A model generated the notes under the pieces. The model had not been told where the DNA came from and ran no database searches. It saw nothing but the letters and a program-made list of their open reading frames with translations. Shown here one piece after another: positions 9,537 through 64,000 of a stretch of DNA of 64,000 nucleotides (positions are counted from its first letter, which is position 1; every line of letters begins with the position of its first letter). Source of the DNA: Oscillospiraceae bacterium (GTDB taxonomy: Bacteria > Bacillota > Clostridia > Oscillospirales > Oscillospiraceae); assembly GCA_021770845.1 (NCBI GenBank), contig JAETQF010000016.1, forward strand, positions 1 to 64,000, given 5' to 3'. Made by a program: the position numbers and the translations under genes.

Positions 9537-9552
9537 CTTAAGCCCTTCAAAA

Positions 9553-9673: not shown

Positions 9674-9678
9674 TGAGC

Positions 9679-9754
9679 TGGAGCGAGTGACGAGGCTCGA
9701 ACTCGCTACCTCCACCTTGGCAAGGTGGCGCTCTACCAGATGAGCTACACTCGC
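9679..9754 (-). tRNA. tRNA-Gly (anticodon GCC)
   Basis: On the minus strand the 76-nt sequence folds as a full cloverleaf. The acceptor stem is GCGAGTG/CACTCGC, the D-stem GCTC/GAGC, the anticodon stem CCACC/GGTGG with loop TTGCCAA (anticodon GCC), and the T-arm contains GTTCGAGC. The CCA end is encoded (TCCA). A consensus promoter lies directly upstream. Confidence 0.97.
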
Positions 9755-9767
9755 AGCGACAAAAGGG

Positions 9768-9796
9768 ATTGTAGCAAGAAATGGAGCGTTTGTCAA
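9768..9796 (-). promoter_or_regulatory. Consensus promoter of tRNA-Gly
   Basis: On the minus strand: TTGACA (9791-9796), a 17-bp spacer and TACAAT (9768-9773), 13 bp before the first tRNA base. One of the best sigma-A promoters in the window. Confidence 0.9.
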
Positions 9797-9839
9797 GGGG
9801 AAATGAAAAATTTCTTTGCCGTATAGGATCTGGAATAAT

Positions 9840-9854
9840 TGTCCAAACTGGACA
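9840..9854. promoter_or_regulatory. Inverted repeat upstream of the yaaL/bofA pair
   Basis: TGTCCA-AAC-TGGACA, a perfect palindrome with a three-base centre, about 33 bp before the DUF2508 start codon. It has the size of a repressor operator, but no adjacent regulator gene is seen and I could not place a good -35/-10 pair around it. Confidence 0.4.
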
Positions 9855-9887
9855 TAGAGTTTTGGTAAGGAAAGGAAGGTGAAGCCC

Positions 9888-10130
9888 ATGGCAGGAGCAG
9901 TCCGATCCAGCCGCCGCCAGGCGGCGGCCCGGGAGGAGGAGCGCAGGCAGCTGATGGAGGGGATGCGGGCCACCCGCACCCAGCTCAACCACGCCTACGC
10001 CCAGTTCAACTTTTACAGCGACCCGGATCTGGTGGACGCCTGCGTCTACGAGATCAACGCCCTGCAAAGCCGTTACTCCTACTACGTCCGGCAGATGAAG
10101 CAGATGGACGCCCGGGAGGACGCCGGATGA
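9888..10130 (+). CDS. DUF2508 (YaaL-like) protein
   Basis: A small, charged, mostly helical protein of 80 residues. The pattern of a basic N-terminus followed by LxxAYxxFNFYSDPDLVDACVYEIxALxxRYxYYxRQ matches the DUF2508/YaaL family. In Bacillus, yaaL sits between recR and bofA; here the bofA-like gene follows with an ATGA overlap, keeping half of that order, but no recR is present. The function of YaaL is unknown. The ATG at 9888 is preferred over the GTG at 9879, which overlaps the AAGGAAGG ribosome-binding site. Confidence 0.8.
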   Translation: MAGAVRSSRRQAAAREEERRQLMEGMRATRTQLNHAYAQFNFYSDPDLVDACVYEINALQSRYSYYVRQMKQMDAREDAG

Positions 10131-10381
10131 CCGGCTGGGGCTGGTGGGCGGCGGCGGGAGCGGCGCTGGTGGCGCTGGCCCTGTTCCGCCGCCCGCTGGG
10201 GGCGCTGTGCCGCCTGGCCGTCCGCTCGGGGCTGGGGCTGGTGTTTCTCTGGCTGTTCCAGGGGCTGGGCGGCCTGCTGGGGATCCATCTGGGGGTCAAT
10301 CTGTTCAACAGCCTGATCCTGGGCGCCCTCGGCCTGCCGGGGTTTGCCCTGCTCCTCATGGCCCAGTGGGCCGTACATTAG
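10127..10381 (+). CDS. BofA-like pro-sigma-K processing inhibitor family protein
   Basis: An 84-residue protein with two or three membrane segments. The C-terminal signature LGVNLFNSLILGALGLPGFALLL is the conserved core of the BofA family. In B. subtilis, BofA holds the SpoIVFB intramembrane protease inactive in the forespore outer membrane until sigma-K is needed. The homologue here is translationally coupled to the DUF2508 gene (ATGA overlap). Whether this organism sporulates cannot be judged from the window; many non-sporulating relatives keep the gene. Confidence 0.82.
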   Translation: MTGWGWWAAAGAALVALALFRRPLGALCRLAVRSGLGLVFLWLFQGLGGLLGIHLGVNLFNSLILGALGLPGFALLLMAQWAVH

Positions 10382-10454
10382 GGCTTTCGTCAAACCGCCC
10401 TGGTTTTTCGGGGGAATATTTACAATATTTTAATAAAATATCAAAAATTTTCTG

Positions 10455-10484
10455 TTGGATTCCGCCCCAATGCTGTGGTATGAT
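10455..10484 (+). promoter_or_regulatory. Probable promoter of the glycoside-hydrolase-like gene
   Basis: TTGGAT (10455-10460), an 18-bp spacer and TATGAT (10479-10484), preceded by an AT-rich stretch (10421-10455). It lies 88 bp before the start codon. Confidence 0.5.
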
Positions 10485-10571
10485 ACAAGCTGGAATGTTA
10501 CAGGGGTTCCGATCCGGACAACCGATGGAGCGCCTGCCGATCCCATAACATCCGCTGGGGAGGAACCGCCT

Positions 10572-11654
10572 ATGGCCGGACGGAAAAATCGCTACGGTTA
10601 CCACGAATACCGGGGGCGCAGCGGCGCCCGCCCGGTGCTGATCTTTATCATTGTGCTGCTGGCGGTGCTGCTGGCGGCCGGGGTGGCGTTCCTGGTATTC
10701 ATGGACGACTACATCAAATACACGCCCACCGGCATCGAAATCGACTGGCCCTGGCGGAGCAGCCCCACCCCGCCCCCCATCGCCAGCGACCCGGTGGTGA
10801 TCGAGACGGACGACGTGGTGACGGTGGAGCCCACCCCCGAGCCCACCCCCACCCCCACGCGGTCGCCCCAGTACGCCCCCATCGGGGCGGTGACGGTGAC
10901 CGCCGCCCAGCTGCGGGACGGCTCGGCGGCTCAGGCGGCGGCCTCCGCCGGGGCGGACGCCGTTATTGTGGAGATGAAGGGGATCAACGGCAAGCTGACG
11001 TGGCAGTCCGGCGCAGAGCTGGCGGCCACCCTGGGGGTGAACGCCGCCGACGATAAGGCCGCCCAGGCCGTGCGGGATCTGGCCCAGAGCGGCAATCTGT
11101 ACCTGGTGGCCCGGGTGCACTGCTTCCGGGATCCCGCCCTGTCCAACGGCAAGATCGGCTCCCTGCGGACAAAGAAAGGCAAGATCTGGTATGACCGCCG
11201 GGGCGTCTGCTGGAGCAGCCCCGCCGACCAGCAGGCAGCGGACTATCTGTCCGCCCTGTGCCTGGAGCTGGCGGACATGGGCTTTGACGAGATCCTGCTG
11301 GACGACGCCGGCTACCCCTGGGACGGCGAGGTGAACGTGCTGGCCACCAGCGACAACCGCCCGGAGGATCGCACCGTCCCGGTGTCCGCCTTCCTCACCC
11401 GGCTGTCCGGCGAGCTGCGGGAGCGGGGGGTCACCCTGTCGGTGTACGCTTATGAGAAGCTGCTGCCCGGCGAGGAGGTCTACAGCGGCCTCACCGCCGC
11501 GGTGCTGGCCCAGAACGCGGGCCGGGTATGGCTGGATCAGCGGGTGGAGCCGGAGCACTATGAGAGCGTCCTCACCGCCGCCGGCCTGGACAACCCCTCC
11601 GCCCGGATCGTGGCCCCCGCCGCCTCCGGCCGGGAGGGCAGCTGGTACCGCTGA
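10572..11654 (+). CDS. Membrane-anchored putative glycoside hydrolase (DUF4015-like)
   Basis: A 360-residue protein. A short basic cytoplasmic N-terminus leads into one membrane anchor (about residues 20-42), a Pro/Thr-rich linker (about 60-95), and a domain that reads as a TIM barrel. Phrases such as GADAVIVEMKGING, NLYLVARVHCFRDP and GFDEILLDDAGYPW match the DUF4015 putative glycosyl hydrolase family. The paired acidic residues in the last phrase could be catalytic. It should act outside the membrane, perhaps on wall or capsule glycans. The start is the ATG after GGGGAGGAA, not an upstream in-frame ATG at 10455 that falls in the promoter. The family has no established substrate that I know of. 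Confidence 0.7.
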   Translation: MAGRKNRYGYHEYRGRSGARPVLIFIIVLLAVLLAAGVAFLVFMDDYIKYTPTGIEIDWPWRSSPTPPPIASDPVVIETDDVVTVEPTPEPTPTPTRSPQYAPIGAVTVTAAQLRDGSAAQAAASAGADAVIVEMKGINGKLTWQSGAELAATLGVNAADDKAAQAVRDLAQSGNLYLVARVHCFRDPALSNGKIGSLRTKKGKIWYDRRGVCWSSPADQQAADYLSALCLELADMGFDEILLDDAGYPWDGEVNVLATSDNRPEDRTVPVSAFLTRLSGELRERGVTLSVYAYEKLLPGEEVYSGLTAAVLAQNAGRVWLDQRVEPEHYESVLTAAGLDNPSARIVAPAASGREGSWYR

Positions 11655-11699
11655 CCCGGGGCGCGGCCCCCGTTCACACACATATGGAAGGAGCGGCCC

Positions 11700-12431
11700 A
11701 TGTCAACTGAACTGCGGATCCGCAAGGCGGTGCCGGAGTACGACGGCACCCTGCGCAGCCACATGATCAAAATCCCCACCTGCATCTCCGAGTGCTCCGG
11801 CATCCGGGTGTTCGGGCGGCGGATCAAATCCCTGGCCTTCACCACCGACGTGGCCATCATCCGCAACATCAACGCCGACGCCATCATCGCCGTCTACCCC
11901 TTCACCCCCCAGCCCGCCATCCACCGGGCGGTGATGCAGGCGGCGGATATGCCGGTATTCGCCGGGGTGGGCGGCGGCGTCACCCGGGGGCCCCGGGTGC
12001 TGAACCTGGCCAACGACGCGGAGCACGAGGGGGCCTTCGGCGTGGTGGTGAACGCCCCCACCAGCAATGAGATCGTCCGCCTGCTCAAGCAGGTGCTGGA
12101 CATCCCCGTGGTGGTCACCGTGGTGTCGGACAAGACGGACGTGGCGGCGCGGCTGGCGGCGGGGGCGGACATTCTCAACATCTCCGGCGCCCAGCACACG
12201 CCGGATCTCGTCCGCCGGGTGCGGGAGCGGTTCCCCGACGTGCCCATCATCGCCACCGGCGGCCCCACCGACGACACCATTTTGGAAACCATCCACGCCG
12301 GGGCCAACGCCATCACCTACACACCCCCCACCAACGGGGAGCTGTTCGCCCAGTCCATGGCCCGCTACCGCCGGGAGCTGGACGTGGAACCCGCGGCGCA
12401 GCCACGACCCGGCCAACCCAATCTGCTTTGA
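11700..12431 (+). CDS. TIM-barrel protein of unknown function (often labelled hydrolase)
   Basis: A 243-residue protein with repeated beta/alpha units and a phosphate-binding-type C-terminal loop (IATGGPTDDTILETIHAGANAITYTPP). The sequence VFAGVGGGVT and the ILNISGAQHTPDLVR stretch also belong to this barrel. I recognise the family from Lachnospiraceae and Oscillospiraceae genomes, where it carries an automatic hydrolase label without biochemical support. It begins 45 bp after the preceding gene with a GGAAGGAGCG ribosome-binding site, and is closed by a strong terminator, so the two may be cotranscribed. Confidence 0.6.
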   Translation: MSTELRIRKAVPEYDGTLRSHMIKIPTCISECSGIRVFGRRIKSLAFTTDVAIIRNINADAIIAVYPFTPQPAIHRAVMQAADMPVFAGVGGGVTRGPRVLNLANDAEHEGAFGVVVNAPTSNEIVRLLKQVLDIPVVVTVVSDKTDVAARLAAGADILNISGAQHTPDLVRRVRERFPDVPIIATGGPTDDTILETIHAGANAITYTPPTNGELFAQSMARYRRELDVEPAAQPRPGQPNLL

Positions 12432-12437
12432 CATCCG

Positions 12438-12475
12438 AACCGTTCCCGCCCCCTGTCCGGGCGGGAACGGTTTTT
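12438..12475 (+). terminator. Rho-independent terminator
   Basis: Fourteen base pairs, AACCGTTCCCGCCC (12438-12451) with GGGCGGGAACGGTT (12459-12472), followed by TTT. It insulates the V-ATPase operon from upstream transcription. Confidence 0.9.
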
Positions 12476-12539
12476 GTTCCAATCTTTGGATATCTTTCTG
12501 ACAAAACGGGGAAGAATGTTCATTTCCCGTGGAAAAGGC

Positions 12540-12568
12540 TTGCGGTTTCGGGAAAGAAGTGGTAGAAT
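12540..12568 (+). promoter_or_regulatory. Promoter of the V-ATPase operon
   Basis: TTGCGG (12540-12545), a 17-bp spacer, TAGAAT (12563-12568). Transcription would start near 12575, just before the inverted repeat at 12581, and 61 bp before the first start codon. Confidence 0.75.
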
Positions 12569-12580
12569 TAAATCCATATG

Positions 12581-12611
12581 GGAGTTAAGGCAGATATTCT
12601 GACTTAACTCC
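12581..12611 (+). promoter_or_regulatory. Hairpin at the 5' end of the V-ATPase transcript
   Basis: GGAGTTAAG (12581-12589) pairs with CTTAACTCC (12603-12611), with a three-base inner CAG/CTG extension around a short loop. It starts only about six bases after the predicted transcription start and ends 25 bp before the start codon. There is no T-tract, so it is not a terminator. A 5' RNA-stabilising hairpin or a protein operator are both possible. Confidence 0.55.
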
Positions 12612-12636
12612 TACAAAGTGAAAGAGGTGAGGAATC

Positions 12637-12950
12637 ATGTCTTTAGAGGCCATCCAAACGATCACCGGCGCCGAACAGGCCGTCCGTGAGCAGAAGGCCC
12701 GGGCCGCCGACGAGGCCAAGCGCATCGTGGCGGAGGCCGAACGGGCCGGACGGCAGCTTGTGTCCGACGCCCGGGCCCAGGCCGAGGAAACGGTGAAGGC
12801 CATGCTGGCCGAAGCGGAGGCCAGGGCCGGGGAGCAATCCGCCCAGACCCTGGGCGACAGCGCCGCCCAGTGCGAGGCGCTGAAGCAGGCCGCGCGGGGC
12901 CGTCTGGAGCAGGCCGCCGGCCTGATTGTTGGAAGGGTAGGGAACAGCTG

Positions 12951-12951
<1 letters not shown>
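12637..12951 (+). CDS. V-type ATPase subunit G/H (peripheral-stalk coiled coil)
   Basis: A 104-residue, highly charged Ala/Glu/Arg-rich coiled coil (about residues 10-90) typical of the EG-stalk partner called NtpF in E. hirae or H in archaea. It should pair with subunit E (15456-16142) to form the peripheral stalk linking the ATP-driven head to subunit I. It is the first gene of the operon, matching the known ntpFIKECGABD order. Its stop overlaps the next start by one base, so translation is coupled. Confidence 0.8.
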
Positions 12952-15414
<2,463 letters not shown>

Positions 15415-47801: not shown

Positions 47802-48097
47802 GGGGGCGGCGGAAAAGTTTTCCCGGCCCGCCCGGTAGACCGCTTTTCCGGCGGCACCCTGCTGGAAGGGGGCGTGGTGGACTGCTACGTCAGGCTGGAG
47901 GATGATGGACGGACTTTGCGGGCACATATCAAAGCGGAGGCACCTGTATGGGTGTCTCCGCTTTTTCATGGCAGAAAAAATGTTGAAAAGCTGGGATTGT
48001 TCTGGTATCATTATCTTTGCAGTCGAAAGGAGGGAGTTGGTAGGGAATACATATTATCATAAATGAGGGATAATTTAGCAAAAGGGGTTGTGGTAGA
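47802..48097 (+). other. Gene-free junction between GC-rich core and AT-rich island
   Basis: About 300 bp. A short protein-like frame (about 47815-47975, with phrases GGVVDCYVRLEDDGRTLRAHI) has no start signal and may be a gene remnant. It is followed by a terminator-like hairpin: AAAGCGGAG (47931-47939) with CTCCGCTTT (47956-47964). Then TTGAAA (47983-47988), a 17-bp spacer and TATCAT (48006-48011) form a plausible promoter for the HNH gene. Base composition drops sharply to AT-rich from about 47970. Confidence 0.5.
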
Positions 48098-48448
48098 ATG
48101 AAGTTAGAGAAATTTTTGAATATGATAAACAGCGTGGATGCAGATTTATCCTATCGAGAAAAGGCGCTTCGTGCCGCACCGTCAAACAATGGCTGGTATC
48201 GGTGCAGAAAATGTGGTAAGAGCTTCCGTGCCTGTGATATGGACGCTGACCATATTCTACCACGAAGCCGAGGTGGTGGCAATGAAAAAGCTAATTTACA
48301 ACTAATCTGTAAACACTGTAACCGCTCAAAAGGTGCCGATACATCCGACACAGCAACAGATCTTATCAAAAACATCGCTATGCAGGAAAAGCAGCAAAAG
48401 GAAATAAAAAAAGTGCAAAGAGACTTTCTGAAGAAAATGTTTAAGTAA
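48098..48448 (+). CDS. HNH endonuclease
   Basis: A 116-residue protein. The HNH core runs from CRKCGKSF through DADHILPRSRGGGNEKANLQLICKHCNRSKG, with two CxxC zinc knuckles, the catalytic His in ADHI, and the central Asn. A lysine-rich helix follows. Codon use and AT content differ strongly from the flanking core genes, so it was probably acquired. It is 12 bp upstream of the unrecognised 48461-49426 gene, and the two look like one operon. Small HNH proteins occur in phage, restriction and toxin contexts; which applies here is not visible. Confidence 0.85.
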   Translation: MKLEKFLNMINSVDADLSYREKALRAAPSNNGWYRCRKCGKSFRACDMDADHILPRSRGGGNEKANLQLICKHCNRSKGADTSDTATDLIKNIAMQEKQQKEIKKVQRDFLKKMFK

Positions 48449-48460
48449 GGTGATAGTCAA

Positions 48461-49426
48461 ATGGATAATAAGCAAAAAGAGATTATGAAAATTGTTTCAA
48501 CTTCCTTACCTGAGTGCTGCAATGGGGCTTCATGTTACTGCTATGGCACAATTCCAGCGGATAAGTTTCGTAATGCCTGCAAAGAATACGCTGGATCTGT
48601 TGATTATTCTGAATGTATTGGATTAACAGATGAAACAGTGTTTGGAAGCGGGAAGCGAGGCTTTATCTTCACTTTTGATGGCTACTATTATACTGGATGC
48701 AGTTCAAAAAGATACTACACGGAAGGAAGAACGTTTAATAACCTTTCATCGTTGTATAATCTTTCTGCAATGAATAATATGTTGAAGCAACTTTATCAGA
48801 TAGCCACTAAAAAGTCTGGATTTGAAACATTCTTTGATTGTGCGTCAGCGGTCGCAGGTGAGTTTTTGAACCAGGCCGCAGAACAGATTCAACGAGATCA
48901 AGAGAAAAAAGATAGGCAAGAAACCGAAGAAATGATTGACACGTTGAAAGCCTGCAAAGCATTTTTGAAAGAATATCAGTCCATATTAAACCAGCTTGTG
49001 GAATATGATTTTCCAGAAATGGATTCGGAGGACTTTGAAACATACTATGCAACACTGTTCCGCTCGGCGGCTCTTTTGGCTAATGATACGGAGCTGTATG
49101 AGAAAACAGAAGGCGAGGTGCTGTCAGAAGAAACTGAGGAAACATTTGATTCCGTTGCGGAAACAGTCAATCTCATATCTGATTTGCTTGAAATGGATAC
49201 CGATGATCATGAGCCGATTTACTTGCGGCAGGCAATTCAGGCGTATCATTCCTCTGTAGACGCAATTGTGGACGAGGCAGAGGATGCAAGTGAGGACTAT
49301 GAGGATGTTGTTCGCCTGTTCAATAAAGGACAGCGTGCGGCTGGAAAGCTAAAAAAGAAAATGAAGGAGGCAATCAGTTCTATCAACGATGCACTTGAAC
49401 TCGCATATGAGGAACTGGATGACTAA
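48461..49426 (+). CDS. Acidic protein of unknown function with N-terminal PH-like domain, paired with HNH nuclease
   Basis: A 321-residue soluble protein. Residues about 20-110 contain the phrase SECIGLTDETVFGSGKRGFIF followed by aromatic strands (TFDGYYYTG). This resembles a small PH-like domain (xxDxTVFGSxxxGFxxTxxGxY) that I know from bacterial proteins of mixed function. The rest (about 140-321) is helical, very acidic and coiled-coil-like, ending ELAYEELDD. There is no catalytic motif or membrane segment. Strongly AT-rich like its HNH neighbour. An immunity-, sensor- or adaptor-type role in a two-gene accessory module is inference. Confidence 0.65.
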   Translation: MDNKQKEIMKIVSTSLPECCNGASCYCYGTIPADKFRNACKEYAGSVDYSECIGLTDETVFGSGKRGFIFTFDGYYYTGCSSKRYYTEGRTFNNLSSLYNLSAMNNMLKQLYQIATKKSGFETFFDCASAVAGEFLNQAAEQIQRDQEKKDRQETEEMIDTLKACKAFLKEYQSILNQLVEYDFPEMDSEDFETYYATLFRSAALLANDTELYEKTEGEVLSEETEETFDSVAETVNLISDLLEMDTDDHEPIYLRQAIQAYHSSVDAIVDEAEDASEDYEDVVRLFNKGQRAAGKLKKKMKEAISSINDALELAYEELDD

Positions 49427-49528
49427 AATAAGCAAAAAAGGCTGCTTTACTTTCGCAAGTAGAACGATATTCCGGACGCTAAACTAAAGGCATGGAAGCG
49501 CCACACGTTTGGATTGGAGGAATGCGCC

Positions 49529-50050
49529 ATGATGCCTATTTCCAGCCTCAACACCGCCGCCCAGCCTTTGAGGGCGGTAAACGGAACAGAAAAGCCCGCC
49601 GCCGTCCGGCGGCCCGGGGAGGAGGAGCCGGCCCGTCCGGCGGAGCCCAGGAGGGACGAGTACGTCCCGGAGGAAAAGCGGGGGCCCTCGGGCCGCTACT
49701 GGTCGGGCCGGGACGGGGACGGACAGCCCAGGATCTATTTTGACGATCCCCAGCGGGCGGCGGACGCCCCGGAGGAGCCCGCCGTCGGGCCGGAACAGGA
49801 CAGGGGATCGAAGGGCCCGGAGAAGAAGGACAGGGAGAACAAAGCGGAGCGCTGCACCGGCGACACCGGCAAGGTGGATCGGGAGATTGAGAAGCTGAAG
49901 CGGAAGCGGGCGGAGCTGGAGCAGCGCCTCAACACCGAGCGGGACGAGGCCAGGCGGGAGGATCTGGAACAGCAGCTTGCCCAGGTGGAGGCCGAGCTGC
50001 GCCAAAAGGACAACGACGGCTACAGACGGCGAAATACCGTGTTCTCCTGA
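49529..50050 (+). CDS. Small charged coiled-coil protein of unknown function
   Basis: A 173-residue protein. The N-terminal two thirds are disordered-looking, rich in Pro, Glu, Arg and Gly. The last ~60 residues form a coiled coil (VDREIEKLKRKRAELEQRL and ELRQKDND). No signal peptide or membrane segment. The ATG at 49529 has GGAGG eight bases upstream. Return to high GC here marks the end of the AT-rich island. I recognise no family. Confidence 0.6.
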   Translation: MMPISSLNTAAQPLRAVNGTEKPAAVRRPGEEEPARPAEPRRDEYVPEEKRGPSGRYWSGRDGDGQPRIYFDDPQRAADAPEEPAVGPEQDRGSKGPEKKDRENKAERCTGDTGKVDREIEKLKRKRAELEQRLNTERDEARREDLEQQLAQVEAELRQKDNDGYRRRNTVFS

Positions 50051-54855: not shown

Positions 54856-55007
54856 AAAAATTTGACAGCGTTCGCGCCGTCCGCCGTTTTGTTTCCAAAG
54901 AAAACCAGGGGGAGAACTTGAATACCCTTCCAAATCCTGCGGATAATACAAGTGGAACGATACAAACAAAGCCGCGGGCAGCCGCGGCAGGAAGCAGGAG
55001 GAAAACC

Positions 55008-55190
55008 ATGAAAGCAACCGGGATCGTGCGCCGCATCGACGATCTGGGCCGGGTGGTGATTCCCAAGGAGATCCGCCGCACCATGCGTATTCGGGAGGGC
55101 GACCCGTCACAGATAACGTTGGAATGGTGGGAAAGGTTCTGCTTCGGGATGATGGAGCTGTCAAAACGGGGCGGGTGGAGCGATACATAG
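55008..55190 (+). pseudogene. SpoVT/AbrB-type regulator, truncated after the DNA-binding domain start
   Basis: Residues 1-33 (IVRRIDDLGRVVIPKEIRRTM, then RIREGDP) are a near-consensus SpoVT/AbrB swapped-hairpin DNA-binding domain. Directly after REGDP the match ends and 27 unrelated residues (with WWERFCFG) lead to a stop at 55190, where a normal protein would continue with LEIF-type strands and a GAF domain. The abrupt switch suggests a recombination or deletion junction near 55107. A good ribosome-binding site (CAGGAGG) remains. The intact copy is presumably elsewhere. Confidence 0.78.
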
Positions 55191-55248: not shown

Positions 55249-55645
55249 CTATGCGAACAATACCTGGGACAGGTCGATGACGCAGTCCCCCAGGACGTTT
55301 ACCCTGAGCCTGCCCTCGGACGCGCCCTTGCAGCCGATGTCGTCCAGCTTGGAGGGAGCGCACACCACGGTGATGTCCGGAGCCACCAACGTGTCCACAT
55401 CCTCCGGAGAATCTCCGTTGCGTTCAAAGGGATGGACGGCAAAGGGGAGCTTGGTAGACTCTGCATTTCCTCCTTTTCAGGTGATCACGGAGCTGTCCGA
55501 ATAGCTTCTCACTGATTTCCTGATGGATTCTAACTGGAGCTGGAGCCATCATCACCAGGTTGCCATAGATCAATTCAATGCGTTCGTCTCCCTCCCGGGT
55601 CAGCGCATCGGCCAGGGTGTAACGGTTTCCTAACGGTAATGGCAT
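55249..55645 (-). pseudogene. Uma2-family endonuclease, frameshifted and internally deleted
   Basis: The minus strand begins with an intact N-terminus (LADALTREGDERIELIYGN, then EISEKLFGQLRDHLKRRKC). At about 55450 a run of four C where three are expected shifts the frame. In the corrected frame the family core continues: VYQAPFAVHPFERNGDS, VAPDITVVCAPSKLDDIGCKGA. It then jumps straight to the C-terminal phrase VNVLGDCVIDLSQ, missing the central EVLSPSTA part that the intact neighbour has. So there are two independent lesions. The family is a PD-(D/E)xK-like fold of unknown role. Confidence 0.82.
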
Positions 55646-55679: not shown

Positions 55680-56255
55680 TTAGGGCAGCATCCCGCTGAA
55701 AACGTCCTCCAATATGATCTCAAAATCATCGTAAAGACTGCATTTGAACTTTGTCACAACCTCCGCCCGCTCCGCCTCGGTCATTTTCTCCAGCATCCAG
55801 TCGGGGTAGATATGGTAAAGGTCAAATAGAACGTAAGACTGCCCCTCCAGACGGTGAATCTCTACCGACTTGTCGGCGGGGTTGACCAGCCAGTATTCCT
55901 GGACGCCGCATTTTTCATAGGCGTCCTTTTTGTAGCCTCGATCCCGTTTTGCGGTGCTGGGGGACAGAACCTCTACCACAAGGTCGGGAGCGCCGTGGAC
56001 GCCGTCGGTTTGGATCTTGCCACGGTCGCAGACCACCATCATGTCGGGGATGAAGCGGTCTTTTTCCGTGAGGTAGAGGTCGGTGCCGTCCGCAATGGCG
56101 GTGCATTGCTTGTGCTTTAGATAAGTCTCAAACAGGTGGGCGATGTTAAAGGCAATGCGGTTGTGATTGAACATGGGCCGGGGGGACATGGCGATAATCC
56201 TGCCGCCGATGAGCTCCTCCCGGATATCTTCCCGATATGCCAGATTATTTTCCAT
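55680..56255 (-). CDS. Uma2-family endonuclease (DUF820), intact
   Basis: A 191-residue protein with the full family pattern: EELIGGRIIAMSPRPMFNH, FIPDMMVVCDRGK, GAPDLVVEVLSPSTAKRDR, YEKCGVQEYWLVNP and a C-terminal strand region. The spaced acidic residues and Lys fit a restriction-endonuclease-like (PD-(D/E)xK) fold. Such genes are often multicopy and their biological role is unproven. The ATG at 56255 follows AAAGGAG. It lies 34 bp upstream of the decayed paralogue on the same strand. Confidence 0.88.
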   Translation of the reverse strand: MENNLAYREDIREELIGGRIIAMSPRPMFNHNRIAFNIAHLFETYLKHKQCTAIADGTDLYLTEKDRFIPDMMVVCDRGKIQTDGVHGAPDLVVEVLSPSTAKRDRGYKKDAYEKCGVQEYWLVNPADKSVEIHRLEGQSYVLFDLYHIYPDWMLEKMTEAERAEVVTKFKCSLYDDFEIILEDVFSGMLP

Positions 56256-56403
56256 AGATAGCGCTCCTTTCTTTTGAGCGTTTAACTTCTTGGCCCTATT
56301 ATAACTCAGGGAGGCGGATAAAACAAGGAAAAATGAAGGAGACAAACGGTCGGTTTGAATTGCAAATACTATTAAACAAACGTACCCAGAATAAAGAAAA
56401 GCA

Positions 56404-56499
56404 GGCGGTGCCACGCCCTTTACCATCATCCGGCAGGACATCGCGAAGATGCAGATACACGCTATCGTCAACGCGGTCAACACCACGCTGCAAATGGGT
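56404..56499 (+). pseudogene. Scrap of a macro-domain (ADP-ribose-binding) protein
   Basis: Read in the frame starting at 56404, the sequence gives GGATPFTIIRQDIAKMQ followed by IHAIVNAVNTTLQMG. This is the conserved first strand-helix of macro-domain proteins (PFxIIRxDIxxMxxDAIVNAANxxLxMG). No start codon or continuation is found: the match ends near 56499 and unrelated sequence follows. It is a short deletion remnant in the gap between Uma2 and the MATE gene (56256-56637), which holds nothing else I can support. Confidence 0.75.
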
Positions 56500-58167: not shown

Positions 58168-58196
58168 TTGACTATCATGAAGCTTAGAGGTAGAAT
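58168..58196 (+). promoter_or_regulatory. Promoter of the DUF4143 ATPase gene
   Basis: TTGACT (58168-58173), a 17-bp spacer and TAGAAT (58191-58196) in an AT-rich gap, 22 bp before the start codon. Confidence 0.72.
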
Positions 58197-58218
58197 AGAT
58201 CAAAAGGAAGGTGTCGAC

Positions 58219-59667
58219 ATGGCGATCACAAGCAAAGAGAGCATCCTAAAGGTGCTGACCGCTTACAACCCCTGGTGGAAAACAGGGGCCGTCAATCCCA
58301 AGCAGGCCAAGACCTACAAGCGATTTGCGTTCCATGAGGCCATGAAACGGCTGGAGCAGACCAACCTGCGCCGAACGATTATTATTACCGGAACCCGTCG
58401 GGTGGGCAAAACCACCATCCAATATCAAATGATCCAGGCGCTTCTGAACAAAGGGGTGGCGCCTCAAAAAATTGTGTTTGTTTCAATGGATCACCCCATG
58501 CTGAAGCTCAGTGGGTTCAGCGATGTGCTGGAGTGCTATCATGAGAACGTGTATGCCGAGCAGGATGTGTACTATTTTTTTGACGAGGTGCAGTACGCCC
58601 AGGATTGGGACAAGTGGCTGAAAACCATTTATGATATGCAGCCGGATACGCAGGTGGTGGCCACCGGTTCGGCGAGCCCTGCGCTGATGAAGGGCAGCCA
58701 GGAGAGTGGAGCAGGGCGCTGGTCGGTGATCCAGGTGCCTACCATGTCCTTTTATGAGTATTGCGAGCTGCTGGATGTGGATCGTCCCCAGCTTCCGGAG
58801 CATATGAAGATCACCTCTATGCTGCGCATGACCCAGCAGCAGCGCACCCAAGTGATGATGCAGCTGTCCAAGGTACAGAACCATGTTAACCGCTATTTAC
58901 AGGTGGGGGGCTTTCCGGAGCTGGTTCTGGCAGACAATGATATCATGGCCCAGCAGATCATGCGTGAGGATGTGGTGGACAAGGTGTTGAAGCGGGATTT
59001 GCCGTCCCTCTACAATATTCGGAACGCCACAGAGCTGGAGCGCATTTTCCTATACCTCTGCAACGTGTCCTCTGAGATCGTTTCCATTGAAGCGATTGCG
59101 AAAGAGCTTAGCGGGGTTTCCCGGCCTACGGTGGAAAACTATATCCAGTACCTGGAGAGCGCCAATCTGATCTATCAGAGCTGGCCGGTGGATATGGCGG
59201 GGAAGAAGGTGCTGAAGGCCCGGCCTAAAATCTATATCGCCGATGCCGCAATCCGCAACGCGGTGTTGATGGATGATTCCCTGTTGACTGACCCGGTGGA
59301 GATGGGAAAAATCGTGGAAACGGCGGTATATAAGCACGTAGCGGCATTTTATTACCAGCAGGCCACATCGGTGGGCTATTTCCGGGGCGGGAAAAAGGGG
59401 AAAGAGATCGACATTGTGGTGGAATATCCTGCTGCAGCCAATATTTTGATTGAGGTAAAGTATCGGGAGGGAGCCCCAATTTCTGATGATGATGCGATTG
59501 CGGAGCTGTGCGGGGAGGCTTCTGCGGCAATCGTCGTGACGAAAAGCGCCAGCGATTTTGGCATCCACAACACGAAGTGCGGGAAGGATATGCTGCGGAT
59601 ACCGGCGTTTGCGTTCCTGTATCTGCTGGGTCATGCGGAAAAGCATGGATATCGGGGGATCGAGTGA
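58219..59667 (+). CDS. AAA-type ATPase with DUF4143 domain
   Basis: A 482-residue protein. Walker A ITGTRRVGKTT (near residues 57-66) and Walker B VYYFFDEVQYAQDW (near 117-130) form an AAA_14 domain. The middle is a winged-helix-like region (VSRPTVENYIQYLESANLIYQS), and the C-terminus is DUF4143, with a nuclease-like EIDIVVE...IEVKYREG pattern (Asp, Glu-x-Lys) near 410-430. These proteins are abundant in gut bacteria and of unknown function, possibly DNA-related. The ATG follows AAGGAAGG. It stands alone. Confidence 0.88.
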   Translation: MAITSKESILKVLTAYNPWWKTGAVNPKQAKTYKRFAFHEAMKRLEQTNLRRTIIITGTRRVGKTTIQYQMIQALLNKGVAPQKIVFVSMDHPMLKLSGFSDVLECYHENVYAEQDVYYFFDEVQYAQDWDKWLKTIYDMQPDTQVVATGSASPALMKGSQESGAGRWSVIQVPTMSFYEYCELLDVDRPQLPEHMKITSMLRMTQQQRTQVMMQLSKVQNHVNRYLQVGGFPELVLADNDIMAQQIMREDVVDKVLKRDLPSLYNIRNATELERIFLYLCNVSSEIVSIEAIAKELSGVSRPTVENYIQYLESANLIYQSWPVDMAGKKVLKARPKIYIADAAIRNAVLMDDSLLTDPVEMGKIVETAVYKHVAAFYYQQATSVGYFRGGKKGKEIDIVVEYPAAANILIEVKYREGAPISDDDAIAELCGEASAAIVVTKSASDFGIHNTKCGKDMLRIPAFAFLYLLGHAEKHGYRGIE

Positions 59668-59934: not shown

Positions 59935-60258
59935 ATGGAATCAACAGTATACAATAAGCTGGTTCGCGATCGAATCCCGGAATTGATAGAGTCGGATGGA
60001 AATATTTGTGTGACAGAAGAATTGCCTGATGTGCGTTATTTGGAAATGCTGGACATCAAATTAAGTGAAGAATTGGAAGAATATCAGGAAAGCAAATCTT
60101 TGGATGAATTAGCTGATTTGTTGGAAGTTATTCGGGCAGTGGTAAAAGCGAGAGGGTGGACTTGGGAACAGCTGGAGCAGGTAAGGGTGAACAAAGCCGC
60201 CCAACGGGGCGGCTTTGAAAATAAAATCCTGCTGCATGAGGTCATAAAGTGTGTGTAG
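59935..60258 (+). CDS. MazG-like nucleoside triphosphate pyrophosphohydrolase
   Basis: A 107-residue all-helical protein. YNKLVRDRIPELI at the N-terminus, then LSEELEEYQES and DELADLLEVIRAVV supply the acidic ExxE...ExxD Mg2+ site of the all-alpha NTP pyrophosphatase fold. AAQRGGFENKILL closes the family pattern. It would hydrolyse (d)NTPs or modified nucleotides. Related genes are frequent in phage and defence islands. Its last 17 bases overlap the convergent HKD nuclease gene. Confidence 0.85.
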   Translation: MESTVYNKLVRDRIPELIESDGNICVTEELPDVRYLEMLDIKLSEELEEYQESKSLDELADLLEVIRAVVKARGWTWEQLEQVRVNKAAQRGGFENKILLHEVIKCV

Positions 60259-61168
60259 TGATAAGTCCTCCGACGTAACGGATGCGTTGTGAATGAGATG
60301 GACGGTCAATTTTGAACTCTGGCATATCTAAATCAACGATCCAATTCAGTAAGTTACTGAGCAGCTCTTTTACCTCTCTGCGGTAAGGCTTGGGTTCGTT
60401 TAGGAGTGTGTTATGTAAGGCAACTGTAACTGCTCCAAAATACATTTCTTTGGGGTTCTGCTTTTCCAACAGATCGATTAACCAACGAAAACATTTTGCG
60501 TGTCTGAAAGCAAGAGAAATTGCGCCTGATGAAACGGGGCATGGAAGATCAAGAAAGGCTAAATCGTCGAAGTTTGCCTCATTTGGGTGAGAACACAAGG
60601 GAAAATCTTCTGTAAAAAGAATCGAATAATCTGGAACAAACAAATCTGCAATTGGCTGAGGCCATTGAAGGTTGGGACTGTGGGTAATATGATTGGCCAG
60701 AAAGTGCTGCATTTGGTCATATATATTGTCATTCATCTCTACAGATCCCCGTATGAGCTGTTCAAGAGATAGAACATCGTTTGCCTCTAATGTACAAATG
60801 GTGGCTATTTCATAATTTCCAGGATTGTGAAAACTAAGGCCGCTGTTAGTGACGTTAGCACTTCCTACAATGCAACGGAGATTGTCAAAGATGTAGGTCT
60901 TTGCGTGCAAATCCAGACGAAAATACAATTTCCAACCGTGCTGCTTACAATAAGGGTATATCTCTAAATCGGAAGCGCCGCTAAGGATATCATCTGGTCT
61001 GAAACGTACCACCAATTTCTTTTCAATAGCAGTATCAAGTATGCTGGAATTGAAAAACTCTATAAGTGGCAGCTTGCAATAGGCGGAAATAAATAGGAAG
61101 GATTCTGTGCTCTGTGCCAATTCATCCCGAATACGATCCAATATTTTTTGAGAAATTAAAAGAGACAC
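60242..61168 (-). CDS. HKD (phospholipase-D-like) nuclease
   Basis: A 308-residue protein of the PLD superfamily. One HKD motif is clear: LHAKTYIFDN with His88, Lys90 and Asp95, followed by VGSANVTNSGL (Gly102, Ser103, Asn105). With a single motif it would act as a dimer, like Nuc or BfiI. The N-terminal region (SFLFISAYCKLPLIEFF) is typical of NgoFVII-like DNA nucleases of restriction systems. The start is GTG at 61168 behind GGAGGG. It is the last of three minus-strand genes 20 bp apart, after the helicase and GHKL ATPase, and probably provides the effector cut. Confidence 0.82.
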   Translation of the reverse strand: MSLLISQKILDRIRDELAQSTESFLFISAYCKLPLIEFFNSSILDTAIEKKLVVRFRPDDILSGASDLEIYPYCKQHGWKLYFRLDLHAKTYIFDNLRCIVGSANVTNSGLSFHNPGNYEIATICTLEANDVLSLEQLIRGSVEMNDNIYDQMQHFLANHITHSPNLQWPQPIADLFVPDYSILFTEDFPLCSHPNEANFDDLAFLDLPCPVSSGAISLAFRHAKCFRWLIDLLEKQNPKEMYFGAVTVALHNTLLNEPKPYRREVKELLSNLLNWIVDLDMPEFKIDRPSHSQRIRYVGGLITTHTL

Positions 61169-61188
61169 ATGAATCCCTCCCTATTAAT

Positions 61189-62952
61189 TCAATTTGATTT
61201 TATTTGATTGAGGTAGGATTTCAGGCGATAATCCCACGTTTGAAGCAAGGTGTCATTTTGATCACTATTATGAATATTTGTAAGATCAATGGCCTTGGCA
61301 AGGGCAGCCAGGAACAATTCAAATGCAAGCTTGCTGTCTTCTGGCATCTTATCGATAAATTCGCTGTAGAAAATATGTGCAGTGTTGATCGTTGCAGCCA
61401 CATGGCCAAGACTAAAATCTGTGTCCAGGAATGGGCCATTTCTTCCTCTATCGCTGTATTCTAATGTGAGCTCTTGATCCAGCAGGGCCTTGATTTGCGC
61501 ATACGTTGGGTCTTGAATGCCGCTTTTGATTAAAGCGTCCTTGGCCCCTGCTTCTAACTGTTCAATGGGTGTAGTTTGGCTGATGTGTTCGGATTCACTG
61601 CCTGCATCGCCCAGTTCGTTTTCGACCGCCTGAACGATATTGCCGGCTTCAGAAGATACGATATCTTCTGGTTCCGCGCGACTACCCTTGCGAAGCACTT
61701 TGTTGTCTTCTACCATCTTTTTAATAGTGGGTATAATGACTTTTGCGAGCTTATCCCACAGCGTTTCTTCCTCAACCTCAGTTCGGTCATCATGCAATTC
61801 GACCTGCTGTTTGTTATTGGATACGCCGAAAAGTTCGTCCAGCACAGGGTCAAAGCATATCTCACAACCCCACCATCTATGATAGGGGTTGTTTGTTTTG
61901 TCATAGAAATCGAATGTACCAAAATCAATTTCACGATTAGCTCTAACAACGGAGATGCCTTCCAACTTTTTTACATATTTTCCAATTGGCTTGCTGCCGG
62001 GATCGCCTGTAGGAATTGCGGTTTGATCGTAAAATTCGGGACGGACTTTAGAAAAACGGATGATTACTTCAGACTCTTTGGTTTCCCCTGTTTTGGCATC
62101 AACATAGGGGAATACCATTTTTACCTTCCCATCATTAGTTCCATACGGAGTGAAGATGGGTTCAGTACAGTTGATATTGGCCCGTTCGGAGATATTTTCT
62201 GGGTCAGCAAGGTTACCAAGTACGTAATTTGTTTTTGCAAGGAAAAGAGGATCATTGGGCAGCACTTCAATAATATTGTCGTTTCCAATTGTAATTAGAC
62301 GAATATTATGGGTTCCATTTATGAGTAAATGACGGAACTTTCGGCCTAATGCAAACTCGAGCCTACTATTAAGAGCGGTCATCGTTTTCGGCTTGACATT
62401 GTCACAATTTTTCCAGTAAACAAGGGTACCGTGCTTGGTAAAGTCGAATATTTTTCCTTTGATATTATAGGTCAAAAAGTCCTGGAACTTTTTAGGGATT
62501 TCTATCTTTTGTGGATCGTCAATTTCTTCTTGCTCTCCTGTCTTAACCTTTTCAATATCCAGCCAAACTTGGTTGACAGGCATATCACGCTCGATTTCGT
62601 CTGTCCAGGAGTAGACTTCCACATTTGGAGTCACATGAAGTGAAGCTTGCGGCAGACCGACACCGAACCGTCCCATACCTTGGCGGCCAAACTTTGTGGT
62701 GAAACCGATGCCAAGGCAGCACGATAATTGCTCAATATCCATACCGCTGCCATTATCCAATATGCCGAATTCGTGGACAGCTTTTCTTCCGGTGGCAGGG
62801 TCAATATGTTCCGACATAATTACAAATATGTCATGTGCGTTGGCTTCAATGGAATTGTCAAGCAGTTCAGCCACGGCGCTATCAATGCTTTTGTAGCCAC
62901 TGCTGCGGAGGGCGTCTCCCATCTGCCTGATCTGAACGATACTTTGTCCCAT
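61189..62952 (-). CDS. GHKL ATPase of the MORC/MutL-like bacterial type
   Basis: A 587-residue protein. The N-terminal GHKL (Bergerat) domain is intact: motif N ELLDNSIEA with Glu29, Asp32 and Asn33, motif G1 ILDNGSGM with Asp66, and motif G2 RQGMGRFGVGLP. An S5-like middle domain follows, with FWC-type aromatic region HRWWGCEICFDPVLDELFG near residue 365. The C-terminal ~200 residues are helical and acidic. Bacterial relatives sit with helicases and nucleases in predicted restriction systems, and eukaryotic MORC ATPases are related. The ATG at 62952 follows GAGGAG; an upstream in-frame ATG (62982) would overlap the helicase gene. Confidence 0.85.
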   Translation of the reverse strand: MGQSIVQIRQMGDALRSSGYKSIDSAVAELLDNSIEANAHDIFVIMSEHIDPATGRKAVHEFGILDNGSGMDIEQLSCCLGIGFTTKFGRQGMGRFGVGLPQASLHVTPNVEVYSWTDEIERDMPVNQVWLDIEKVKTGEQEEIDDPQKIEIPKKFQDFLTYNIKGKIFDFTKHGTLVYWKNCDNVKPKTMTALNSRLEFALGRKFRHLLINGTHNIRLITIGNDNIIEVLPNDPLFLAKTNYVLGNLADPENISERANINCTEPIFTPYGTNDGKVKMVFPYVDAKTGETKESEVIIRFSKVRPEFYDQTAIPTGDPGSKPIGKYVKKLEGISVVRANREIDFGTFDFYDKTNNPYHRWWGCEICFDPVLDELFGVSNNKQQVELHDDRTEVEEETLWDKLAKVIIPTIKKMVEDNKVLRKGSRAEPEDIVSSEAGNIVQAVENELGDAGSESEHISQTTPIEQLEAGAKDALIKSGIQDPTYAQIKALLDQELTLEYSDRGRNGPFLDTDFSLGHVAATINTAHIFYSEFIDKMPEDSKLAFELFLAALAKAIDLTNIHNSDQNDTLLQTWDYRLKSYLNQIKSN

Positions 62953-62972
62953 ATGGCGTACTCCTCTCTTTC

Positions 62973-64000
62973 TTAGCTCCAATAAGTATCGAAATGGTTG
63001 AATGCCATGTTTGCATCAAAGCGGCCTAAATTATCTTTGATATCAATGAGCAGGCATTCTTTGTTGCCGCCCATCATGGGGCCTCTTAGACCGCGACCAA
63101 GCATCTGGCTGTACAAGACGATGGACTGTGTAGGGCGTGTGATAAAAACACATTGGATATTTGTGGAGTCAAATCCAGTTGTAAGTACCTCATAATTGAT
63201 TAGAATATTGATCGGATTGTCCCGGTCTTTAAAAGCCGAGATGGATTCTGCGCGATCAACTGCAGCCATCTCGCCAAGCACAAGCGCATTTGGAATATGT
63301 TCCAAAGATAGCATAAAAGACAGCAGCTTTGCGTGGGCAACGGAACAGGCAAATACAATAGTTGGCATTTGGTCGACAGACAATTTTCGGAGCCTATCCA
63401 TTATAGCAGCATTTCTACTTCGATTTTGCCCAATTATCTCTAATGCTGCTCTGCTGAAATCAACATAGCCATTTTCAAGCATTTGTGTTTGAATACTTTG
63501 GAGCTGCGTATGCGTAAACTGTTCAGTGTATATCAGCTGCTCTTTCTTAATTTTTGCCAGGATGTTTGATGTTTGAAAATAGCGTATGATATTCGTTTCA
63601 GTGGGGTGATTTAGATATGCTGCTTGAGACATATTCACTTGATTAATGACATTGATATCAATGCCAATAAGGCGATTTTCGAAAATGTTGGACAATAATT
63701 TGTTTTCATCGGCTGTCAATGTTGCTCGGCCAGGAGTAGCAGTCAACCCTAATAGGGATCGATCCTTTCCTTGAGGTGGGATGCTCATGAGCTCATCGAT
63801 GAGCTTCCGAGTTTCTGTTGCCGCAACTTTGTGGGCTTCGTCAAAAATAATCAGCCGTGCATCTTTTATGATTTGCAGAAAAAGTTCGGGTTGATTCTGT
63901 CGGATCGACTGGAGCTTCTGGATACCGCAAAACATGATTCCACGAAATCCATCTTGAGGAACCGCAATTTTGACTTTTCCCCAGAGCCTGTATGTGTCAA
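62973..64000 (-). CDS. Superfamily 2 (DEAH) helicase, 5' end beyond the window
   Basis: The minus-strand frame is open to the window edge, giving the last 341 residues. Motif II is IIFDEAHK, motif III LTATPGR, then motif IV-like IVFACSVAHA and, late, LTTGFDSTNI and YSQMLGRGLRG (motifs V and VI). The layout matches RAD25/restriction-type SF2 translocases. Motif I lies outside. It ends 20 bp before the GHKL gene, so translation of the three-gene set is probably coupled. As part of this operon it would move along or unwind target DNA. Confidence 0.88.
   Translation of the reverse strand, partial: DTYRLWGKVKIAVPQDGFRGIMFCGIQKLQSIRQNQPELFLQIIKDARLIIFDEAHKVAATETRKLIDELMSIPPQGKDRSLLGLTATPGRATLTADENKLLSNIFENRLIGIDINVINQVNMSQAAYLNHPTETNIIRYFQTSNILAKIKKEQLIYTEQFTHTQLQSIQTQMLENGYVDFSRAALEIIGQNRSRNAAIMDRLRKLSVDQMPTIVFACSVAHAKLLSFMLSLEHIPNALVLGEMAAVDRAESISAFKDRDNPINILINYEVLTTGFDSTNIQCVFITRPTQSIVLYSQMLGRGLRGPMMGGNKECLLIDIKDNLGRFDANMAFNHFDTYWS

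Follow-up and report, generated by a model that had tools for sequence, protein, structure and literature searches.

A helicase, GHKL ATPase and PLD nuclease operon linked to DNA phosphorothioation genes in an Oscillospiraceae bacterium: a probable restriction arm

Three adjoining genes of an Oscillospiraceae bacterium, encoding an SF2 helicase, a GHKL ATPase and a PLD nuclease, probably form the restriction (effector) arm of a phosphorothioation (PT)-based restriction-modification system; we put the probability of this reading at about 0.68. The trio shares an operon with DNA-sulfur genes, and so its probable role is to cut DNA in a sulfur-based phage defence. The window, that is the whole stretch of DNA analysed, covers positions 1 to 64,000 of contig JAETQF010000016.1 (assembly GCA_021770845.1), and contig positions above 64000 continue its numbering. 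The features of the locus are as follows.

55008..55105, plus strand: 5' portion of spoVT, which the carrier element interrupts
60242..61168, minus strand: PLD/HKD nuclease gene, third gene of the trio (308 aa; start GTG 61168)
61189..62952, minus strand: GHKL (MORC/MutL-like) ATPase gene, likely start ATG 62952 (ORF-finder version 61189-62982, TTG start, 597 aa)
62973..64000, minus strand: 3' part of the SF2 (RadD/ResIII-like) helicase gene (5'-open ORF 62973-63998, 341 aa)
62973 to contig position 64760, minus strand: whole helicase gene (595 aa)
64732-67032, minus strand, beyond the window: SspE-like gene
67016-68158, minus strand, beyond the window: SspA gene
68169-71810, minus strand, beyond the window: SspC gene
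71834-72709, minus strand, beyond the window: SspB gene
72725-74470, minus strand, beyond the window: SspD gene
75249-77486, plus strand, outside the window: serine recombinase gene at the right end of the element; its reading frame continues into the 3' portion of spoVT

The eight same-strand genes, in the order D-B-C-A-E-helicase-GHKL-PLD, are separated by gaps of 10-23 bp or overlap by 17-29 bp. In our reading of the sequence, AGAGGAG precedes ATG 62952 of the GHKL gene and GGAGGGA precedes GTG 61168 of the PLD gene. The GHKL gene most likely starts at ATG 62952, so that both gaps within the trio are exactly 20 bp; the open reading frames and start codons thus bear out the three minus-strand genes 20 bp apart described in the sequence-only reading. 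The same reading had called this DNA AT-rich relative to its surroundings, and indeed the GC content is 0.424 and 0.430 in the two 2-kb steps of 60001-64000, against 0.600-0.733 in 28 of the 29 steps from 1 to 58000 (the remaining step, 48001-50000, is at 0.478). The operon is carried by an element of about 22 kb, with a serine recombinase, inserted in spoVT. The sequence GGCGACCC at 55098-55105 is repeated at contig position 77043-77050. A search with a left cargo gene returned an 88% copy in another genome (G036) with no junction, and the right-flank search gave junctions.

The assignments of the three proteins rest on domains, motifs and folds. Pfam domains were PLDc_2 and PLDc for the PLD protein, HATPase_c_3 for the GHKL protein, and Helicase_C and ResIII for the helicase. 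The complete helicase carries PTGTGKT, DEAH, TATP and QMLGRGLR motifs; as the window covers just its C-terminal 341 aa, the DEAH motif lies within the window and the Walker A motif outside. An alignment of 54 rows showed H88, K90, N105 and E120 to be invariant in the PLD protein, and one of 62 rows showed the same for E39, D42, N43, D76, G78 and G80 in the GHKL protein. Because of this conservation the motifs are not due to chance, and the earlier description of the DEAH, GHKL and HKD motifs as intact proved correct. Structure comparison also backed the ATPase and nuclease assignments: the GHKL fold matched MORC2, SMCHD1 and MutL, with TRAP1/Hsp90 and topoisomerase VI-B matching about equally well, and the PLD fold matched Nuc, NucT and the NgoAVII R-protein (4rct, 1.1e-5, rank 18), all at the superfamily level (TM-score by query 0.3-0.4). 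The top NCBIfam model of the helicase was RadD (109.5 bits, far under the cut-off of 720 bits), and a PDB sequence search matched it to the RadD structure 6jde; this search gave nothing useful for the GHKL and DUF262 proteins and zero matches for the PLD protein. A search of a phage sequence collection gave one weak partial match.

Directly upstream of the trio, on the same strand, lies an sspD-sspB-sspC-sspA cassette with an SspE-like gene. PADLOC models were matched by SspA (1.3e-39), SspB (2.3e-59), SspC (4.1e-123) and SspD (5.9e-13). SspB carries DUF4007 (9.2e-83), and the best PADLOC match of SspD, a 581-aa PAPS reductase, was BrxP (8.5e-78). By sequence similarity, the cassette is thus of the SspABCD type, encoding together a predicted SspA cysteine desulfurase, SspB DUF4007 protein, SspC ATPase and SspD PAPS-reductase-type protein. 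The SspE-like protein matched GmrSD_N (DUF262) above cut-off (3.6e-24) and GmrSD_C (HNH/DUF1524) at 21.4 bits, just below the 23-bit cut-off; no SspE-named model was among its listed matches at E <= 10. Pfam detected no DNA methylase domain in any of the eight operon proteins, and a methylase-based system was rejected on this ground; SspD gave a weak MTase_II match of 21 bits with PADLOC. The sequence-only reading had expected either a methylase past 64000 or a system that works without self-marking. What is found there is the SspABCD-type cassette and the SspE-like gene, not an unrelated housekeeping operon, and with this cassette in the operon of the trio the missing self mark is probably backbone sulfur. 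PT would most likely serve as self mark, by analogy with what is published for DndFGH and SspFGH.

We scanned for related ATPases and analysed the best 80 of 311 relatives; since the query was built from five ATPases, every one adjoining ssp genes, and only the best relatives were retained, the linkage rates are biased upward. Among these best 80 of 311, a helicase gene was found in 78 loci, a PLD gene in 66 and one or more of sspB/C/D in 67. Two or more of these three ssp genes were present in 46 of the 51 loci with full context (at least 8.5 kb on either side), and one or more in all 45 of the PLD-bearing full-context loci. The order D-B-C-A-h-g-p (h-g-p, helicase-GHKL-PLD) occurred in 26 of the 80, next to divergent and facing cassettes: gene order varies and linkage is retained. 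Helicase and GHKL genes stood alone in 9 of the 80, and four full-context loci were without sspB/C/D (L072, L082, L086 and L111). In a separate set of 12 plasmid hits, ssp genes adjoined six of the eight helicase-GHKL pairs. One plasmid locus (L220) carried GHKL, helicase and PLD genes with ssp genes absent within 8.5 kb, and another (L216) had helicase-GHKL-nuclease genes adjoining SspF/G-like genes in place of the ssp cassette. In Trichormus variabilis, a plasmid carries the trio together with ssp genes. Since helicase, PLD and ssp genes recur across the best 80 of 311 loci, the trio are not chance neighbours, and the conserved neighbourhood on which the sequence-only reading depended was borne out. 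Pairwise distances over 54 loci, whose correlations are inflated by shared ancestry, gave r = 0.956 for helicase versus GHKL and r = 0.58-0.76 for the trio versus SspB/C/D; within the 25 long-SspD loci, GHKL versus SspB/C/D reached just 0.35-0.44. In this long-SspD group, distance correlations ignoring kinship hinted at the PLD protein tracking SspB/C (0.71-0.75) more than GHKL (0.55).

The slot after GHKL is occupied by an HNH nuclease gene in two loci (L097 and L110) and in L103 by a relative of a PADLOC 'Effector, Endonuclease' model; L111, a locus without sspB/C/D that has a nuclease-like gene after GHKL, carries a homologue of it. With such substitutes, the third gene acts as an interchangeable nuclease. 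At other loci, the ssp core carries different effector modules, PbeA/C or SspF/G.

Several known systems resemble the trio in part. The SspABCD-SspFGH system of Vibrio anguillarum FF-93 (mBio 2021, PMC8092258) joins the same kind of cassette to an adjoining three-gene restriction module and is compatible with SspE; it differs in that SspF has a Walker A motif and SspH is FtsK-like. We rejected identity with SspFGH: the PADLOC SspF and SspG models, which detected L168 (1.6e-208 and 1.2e-109) and also L184, were absent from the matches listed for the GHKL and PLD proteins (E <= 10) and for the helicase (E <= 0.01), and no FtsK-type domain was listed for the three proteins. DndCDEA-PbeABCD (Nat Commun 2019, PMC6459918) is likewise PT-coupled, with an SF2 helicase, a PLD/HKD nuclease domain and a dimerising ATPase. 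However, PbeA combines HKD and helicase in one protein and the ATPase PbeC is of the ABC and not the GHKL kind (PMC10853773), whereas the trio proteins are separate and no ABC ATPase is among them. A split PbeA was rejected as well: the helicase of the window scored 109.5 bits with RadD versus 53.5 with PbeA, six trio-type helicases gave 47-88 bits with PbeA models versus 808 and 820 bits for two real PbeA proteins, and, with a limit of E <= 10, the trio PLD profile matched none of 14 PbeA proteins.

The parallel drawn in the sequence-only reading was to the MORC/paraMORC-SFII systems of Iyer et al. 2008 (PMC2292703), in which a GHKL+S5 ATPase adjoins an SFII helicase and nucleases, including HKD, with DNA methylases as the modification part. 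It stands for the GHKL-type ATPase beside an SFII helicase and a nuclease; it fails for the methylase, the predicted modification here being phosphorothioation, a subject for which 'phosphorothio' has 0 occurrences in the main text of that paper. BREX type 4 (BrxP, BrxC, DUF4007, PglZ, BrxL; NAR 2026, PMC12839542) has in common with the operon a BrxP-like PAPS reductase, SspC/BrxC and DUF4007; it was rejected, with no PglZ in the genome (assembly 82% complete) and no PglZ or BrxL identified among the eight proteins of the operon. DISARM was also rejected: DrmC was the top PADLOC family of the PLD protein, but with just 28.9 bits (18.4 bits with NCBIfam DrmC, cut-off 133), and no DrmA or DrmB was among the listed matches of the operon, leaving the weak DrmC (PLD) and DrmD (helicase) similarity alone. 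NgoAVII/CglI-type systems are methylation-based, unlike the operon of the trio, and to our knowledge lack a GHKL ATPase. They share with the trio a separate PLD nuclease and a DEAD-type helicase (CglI: PMC5737866).

The linkage can also be read in other ways. The trio could stay inactive on unmodified DNA until PT marks trigger it to damage incoming DNA, as SspE itself is triggered (PMC8092258), in which case loss of sspABCD would silence the trio, not make it toxic. An SspE-like gene shares the operon, and the PLD-ssp linkage in the full-context loci is compatible with protecting and activating modes alike. We nevertheless consider this unlikely, as SspFGH and DndFGH, multi-gene partners already in the literature, target unmodified DNA (PMC8092258) and no PT-reader domain was among the general domain-model matches of the trio. 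Still more doubtful is a self-contained defence module that only travels alongside ssp cassettes in defence islands and makes no use of PT. Rakesh et al. 2024 make the case that DndFGH and modification are often uncoupled (PMC10853773), and the four full-context loci and plasmid locus L220 described above do have helicase-GHKL pairs, or all three genes, without visible ssp genes; against this stand the tightly spaced single operon found here, the recurrent D-B-C-A-h-g-p order with linkage kept in several others, and the correlation with SspB/C/D distances in the pooled set.

It is very improbable that the trio is an accessory to modification or to repair of PT-DNA, the helicase and GHKL protein opening or remodelling DNA for SspB/C/D, or the PLD protein processing failed PT sites. 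The top NCBIfam model of the helicase, although far under its cut-off, is a DNA repair helicase, GHKL resembles MutL, and the helicase-GHKL pair can occur without PLD. But there are also ssp cassettes with PbeA/C or SspF/G beside them and no trio, the SspBCD of the published account functions without it (PMC8092258), and a swappable nuclease suits an effector better.

For the trio as restriction arm, we propose the following course, by homology and from MORC/MutL. SspA, B, C and D would place sulfur in the host DNA backbone at a short motif. The GHKL ATPase would close on DNA as an ATP-driven dimer clamp and would form a working unit with the SF2 helicase/translocase, a pairing that the genome comparison shows. 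On DNA without the expected sulfur marks, this pair would license nicking or cutting by the PLD nuclease, and the SspE-like protein would be a second, PT-stimulated effector. The sequence-only reading had inferred an anti-phage module. The conserved set does resemble a restriction/defence module, for which cleavage and anti-phage activity are predicted.

The chances appear evenly balanced that the trio represents an undescribed class of PT restriction, in which a MORC-type GHKL clamp and a RadD-like helicase read backbone sulfur as self mark and deliver DNA lacking it to a nuclease that can be exchanged (PLD, HNH or Cap4-like). The trio would then be among the missing restriction partners of 'orphan' sspBCD across Bacillota, Spirochaetota, Actinomycetota, Cyanobacteriota, Pseudomonadota, Bacteroidota, Chloroflexota and more (taxa as named in sequence records), and, within the literature searched, the first MORC-like ATPase tied to backbone rather than base modification. 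That literature contained nothing combining 'phosphorothioation' with 'GHKL', nor a description of the gene make-up of the trio, which figures or supplements could still show. In the count of Wang et al. 2021, 2,211 of 2,678 sspBCD loci lacked both SspE and SspFGH; further restriction partners are one of two possibilities named for such loci (PMC8092258); the trio is a concrete candidate for this role. If this is true, the Ssp modification core would act as a chassis on which effector modules can be exchanged (SspE, SspFGH, PbeABCD-like and the trio), and MORC-like ATPases, whose relatives are described as silencing transposons in eukaryotes, would be linked to bacterial self/non-self discrimination via DNA backbone sulfur.

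Read past window position 64000, the contig (109,868 bases, of which the window is the first 64,000) places the PLD/HKD nuclease, GHKL MORC/MutL-like ATPase and SF2 helicase genes (hereafter the trio, p, g and h) downstream of DNA modification genes. The sequence-only reading had described three minus-strand genes spaced 20 bp apart in AT-rich DNA, and the open reading frames, start sites and base composition agree: both gaps measure 20 bp and hold plausible ribosome-binding sites, and GC falls to 0.42-0.43 at the trio. It had also supposed that a methylase lay beyond 64000 or that the system worked without self-marking. Modification genes do lie upstream; however, they are ssp genes on the strand of the trio, and the modification enzymes missed by that reading are therefore those of DNA phosphorothioation (PT). 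Eight genes from 60242 to 74470 look like a single operon, and a recombinase gene lies beyond them (contig numbering past 64000):

60242-61168, minus strand: PLD gene (open reading frame and Pfam PLDc_2)
61189-62952, minus strand: GHKL gene, likely ATG start (open reading frame and Pfam HATPase_c_3)
62973-64000, minus strand: 3' part of the helicase gene, whole gene to 64760, 595 aa (Pfam Helicase_C/ResIII)
64732-67032, minus strand: SspE-like gene, 766 aa, DUF262/GmrSD_N with an HNH-like C-terminus
67016-68158, minus strand: SspA, cysteine desulfurase, 380 aa
68169-71810, minus strand: SspC-type ATPase, 1213 aa
71834-72709, minus strand: SspB, DUF4007 protein, 291 aa
72725-74470, minus strand: SspD/BrxP, PAPS-reductase protein with ferredoxin domain, 581 aa
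75249-77486: large serine recombinase gene (Pfam Resolvase, Recombinase, zinc ribbon), right end of the element

This operon is cargo of an element of about 21.9 kb, from window position 55098 to contig position 77050, that splits spoVT, a sporulation gene. In two genomes of the same genus (G002, G017) spoVT is uninterrupted, and the match to 54893-55105 abuts the match from 77033 onwards. We read GGCGACCC, present at both junctions, as the probable shared core; the register of an alternative 10-mer from a plain repeat search was not supported by the junctions. The serine recombinase gene reads in frame into the 3' part of spoVT. In G032 a related recombinase is joined to the 3' part of spoVT beside a CAT-family gene; the 19.9 kb examined there did not show the opposite end. 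The element also carries an AAA_14/DUF4143 ATPase gene (58168-59667, plus strand). A 107-aa frame (59935-60258, plus strand) converges on the PLD gene and overlaps its end by 17 bp; it presumably resembles a MazG-like NTP pyrophosphohydrolase, and Pfam and NCBIfam searches gave no match. Two minus-strand frames (55424-55645 and 55680-56486) may be Uma2-family endonuclease fragments. A second GC drop, to 0.478 against a surrounding 0.63-0.67, occurs at 48001-50000.

The nuclease and GHKL assignments of the sequence-only reading were backed by structure comparison and invariant residues. The GHKL catalytic residues were invariant in a 62-row alignment, and the AlphaFold model (pLDDT 85.9) matched best MORC2 with DNA (Foldseek, 3.6e-12), then SMCHD1, MutL and MORC3, with TRAP1 and topoisomerase VI-B close behind and TM-scores by query of 0.3-0.4. 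In the nuclease, matched by Pfam PLD at residues 66-126, H88, K90, N105 and E120 were invariant (54 rows); its model (pLDDT 91.8) was closest to Nuc and NucT (8e-7 to 3e-6), and further PLD-fold matches included the NgoAVII R-protein (1.1e-5). The strict HKD..GSxN pattern was found in 60/66 PLD proteins, the remaining six being one short frame and five variants, and Walker A, DEAH-like and motif VI patterns were each present in 71 of 73 long helicase copies.

A tblastn search of 72,556 plasmids returned 30 records. In all of the first four examined (H1, H2, H14 and H7, from Treponema saccharophilum, Trichormus variabilis, Mesorhizobium onobrychidis and Hymenobacter sp.), DEAD/DEAH helicase, ATP-binding protein and phospholipase D genes were consecutive, near DUF4007, PAPS reductase and/or cysteine desulfurase genes. 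An alignment of these four GHKL proteins and that of the window was used to scan one genome per species (84,980 species), giving 363 stretches and 311 relatives, of which the best 80 were kept; neighbours were labelled with profiles made from the kept loci and iterated on the same loci. The trio proved to be conserved as neighbours across genomes, which the sequence-only reading had named as a check: among these best 80 of 311, helicase was present in 78, PLD in 66 and at least one of sspB/C/D in 67. Of the 51 loci flanked on each side by 8.5 kb or more, 46 had at least two of sspB/C/D; where PLD was also present, 45/45 had at least one and 44/45 at least two, the 45th (L074) showing SspA and a partial SspC at its edge. 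In nine of the 13 kept loci without sspB/C/D the flanks were shorter than this. The other four, with full context (L072, L082, L086, L111), are helicase-GHKL pairs lacking PLD and sspB/C/D within about 10 kb each side; the neighbours examined at L072 are metabolic and copper genes. On an archaeal contig titled Cenarchaeum sp. MAG (L093), the pair has a PLD-like gene on the opposite strand and is followed by elongation-factor-G-type and arginyl-tRNA-synthetase-type genes.

Gene orders in the 80 loci (labels at ≥60 bits; D, B, C, A for sspD, sspB, sspC, sspA) were D-B-C-A-h-g-p (26, and one more with DUF262), helicase-GHKL alone (9), D-C-B-A divergent from h-g-p (7), A opposed to B-C-D-h-g-p (6), B-C-D-h-g-p (4), h-g-p facing D-C-B (4), B-C-h-g-A (2) and arrangements met once each (21). 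Since the linkage persists through these rearrangements, it argues for function.

The nuclease position varies. Two Nostoc loci (L097, L110) lack PLD and carry between GHKL and SspA an HNH nuclease gene (Pfam HNH 8.8e-15 for L110, that of L097 being a close relative). Four loci (L103, L111, L213, L216) have a gene for a 343-361 aa protein next after GHKL; the L103 protein matches the PADLOC 'Effector, Endonuclease' model (1.8e-15), which we take to be Cap4-like, and the other three match the L103 protein. A 163-aa frame without Pfam match occupies this slot in L109.

The scan was biased, its query coming from five ssp-linked ATPases and its loci being only the best 80 of 311 relatives; we therefore examined 12 further plasmid records, picked from the tblastn listing with neighbours still unseen (16/30 in all; H3, H11, H12, H19 and the records ranked after H20 were left out). 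In 8/12 the gene directly before a close GHKL gene (score 600 bits or more) encoded the helicase. Six of these eight (L213, L214, L215, L219, L221, L222) had one or more of sspB/C/D no farther than 8.5 kb away, L217 showed no more than genes for a cysteine desulfurase and a DndB-like protein, and in L216 (Agrobacterium plasmid, 9022-13694) the helicase-GHKL-endonuclease set was directly followed by SspF-like, SspG-like and FtsK/SpoIIIE-domain genes. More distant GHKL proteins without helicase were found in L218, L223 and L224, the last two near genes with a PAPS reductase family annotation. L220 had GHKL, helicase and PLD genes arranged differently, with no ssp genes in the stretch seen. The GHKL family at large is therefore not limited to ssp loci, whereas the helicase-GHKL pair, in the loci seen, mostly is.

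Against the background, DUF4007 occurred in 29/398 phylum and 9/384 order genomes, and close GHKL (E < 1e-40) in 3/398 phylum (our own, G558, G673) and 2/394 order genomes (our own, G123), our own counted in each; every genome with close GHKL was DUF4007-positive. A reverse survey asked which genes adjoin the ssp core, with effector models run on examples. It covered 35 of the 36 DUF4007 loci outside our genome; the 36th, that of G123, is laid out as L043. Of 37 loci counted with our own, the trio was present in four (our own, L043, L167, L169), SspF- or SspG-like proteins in nine (L175 besides, solely through a match to an SspF-fusion protein), and DUF262 in four, one also with the trio and one also with PbeA; the remaining seven were fragments or had no recognised effector. 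A PbeA-like protein (at least 500 bits), each time with some PbeC-like match, was found in 14 of these 37 loci from the Bacillota samples (L156, L158, L161, L164-L166, L170, L174, L179, L180, L182, L183, L187, L188), and these cassettes are ssp, not Dnd; the founding Pbe paper places Pbe beside dnd genes (PMC6459918). With such varied effectors, the ssp core behaves like a chassis on which effector modules can be exchanged. L154 (14442-19013) encodes beside ssp genes a protein of about 1,500 aa whose N-terminal two thirds match PglW and kinase-type models and whose C-terminal third matches SspF, an apparent kinase-SspF fusion; L155, L162 and L173 have relatives of about 1,500 aa, also beside ssp genes. 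In L174 (6486-7460) and L178 (4878-5882), PLD relatives (E about 1e-30) lie near ssp cassettes that lack the GHKL/helicase pair, each relative adjoining genes for about 1,030 and 750 aa.

Where all six proteins were present (54 loci), pairwise distances, relatedness still included, clearly show two tight units, helicase-GHKL (r 0.956) and SspB-SspC (r 0.968). Trio-ssp pairs gave r 0.58 to 0.76, and 0/999 permutations attained any observed value. In loci with long SspD (n=25), r was 0.35-0.44 for GHKL and 0.41-0.50 for helicase against SspB/C/D, and 0.93 and 0.97 within the two units; with short SspD (n=29), trio-ssp values were 0.58-0.77. Because relatedness remains in the data, the correlation lends weak support to joint evolution of trio and ssp core.

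Gene content, linkage, intact active sites and folds are shown by the analysis. In the mechanism that we propose, PT would mark host DNA, the GHKL clamp would close, the helicase would translocate, and marked and unmarked DNA would be discriminated before cleavage. PT is favoured as the likely self mark on the precedent of two published partners: SspFGH and DndFGH attack DNA that is unmodified and are harmful to cells lacking PT, whereas SspE is stimulated by PT (PMC8092258). We considered whether the trio is itself SspF/SspG or PbeA: those models strongly recognise other ssp loci, and give the trio no match except a distant one to its helicase. In the mostly open-access main texts searched, the trio was not found described as a PT partner, and no paper contained 'phosphorothioation' and 'GHKL' together. 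We read the trio with the ssp core as a probable PT-based restriction system whose gene make-up was not found described in that literature; PT-based restriction is a known kind of system, and the trio would be a new restriction part for it.
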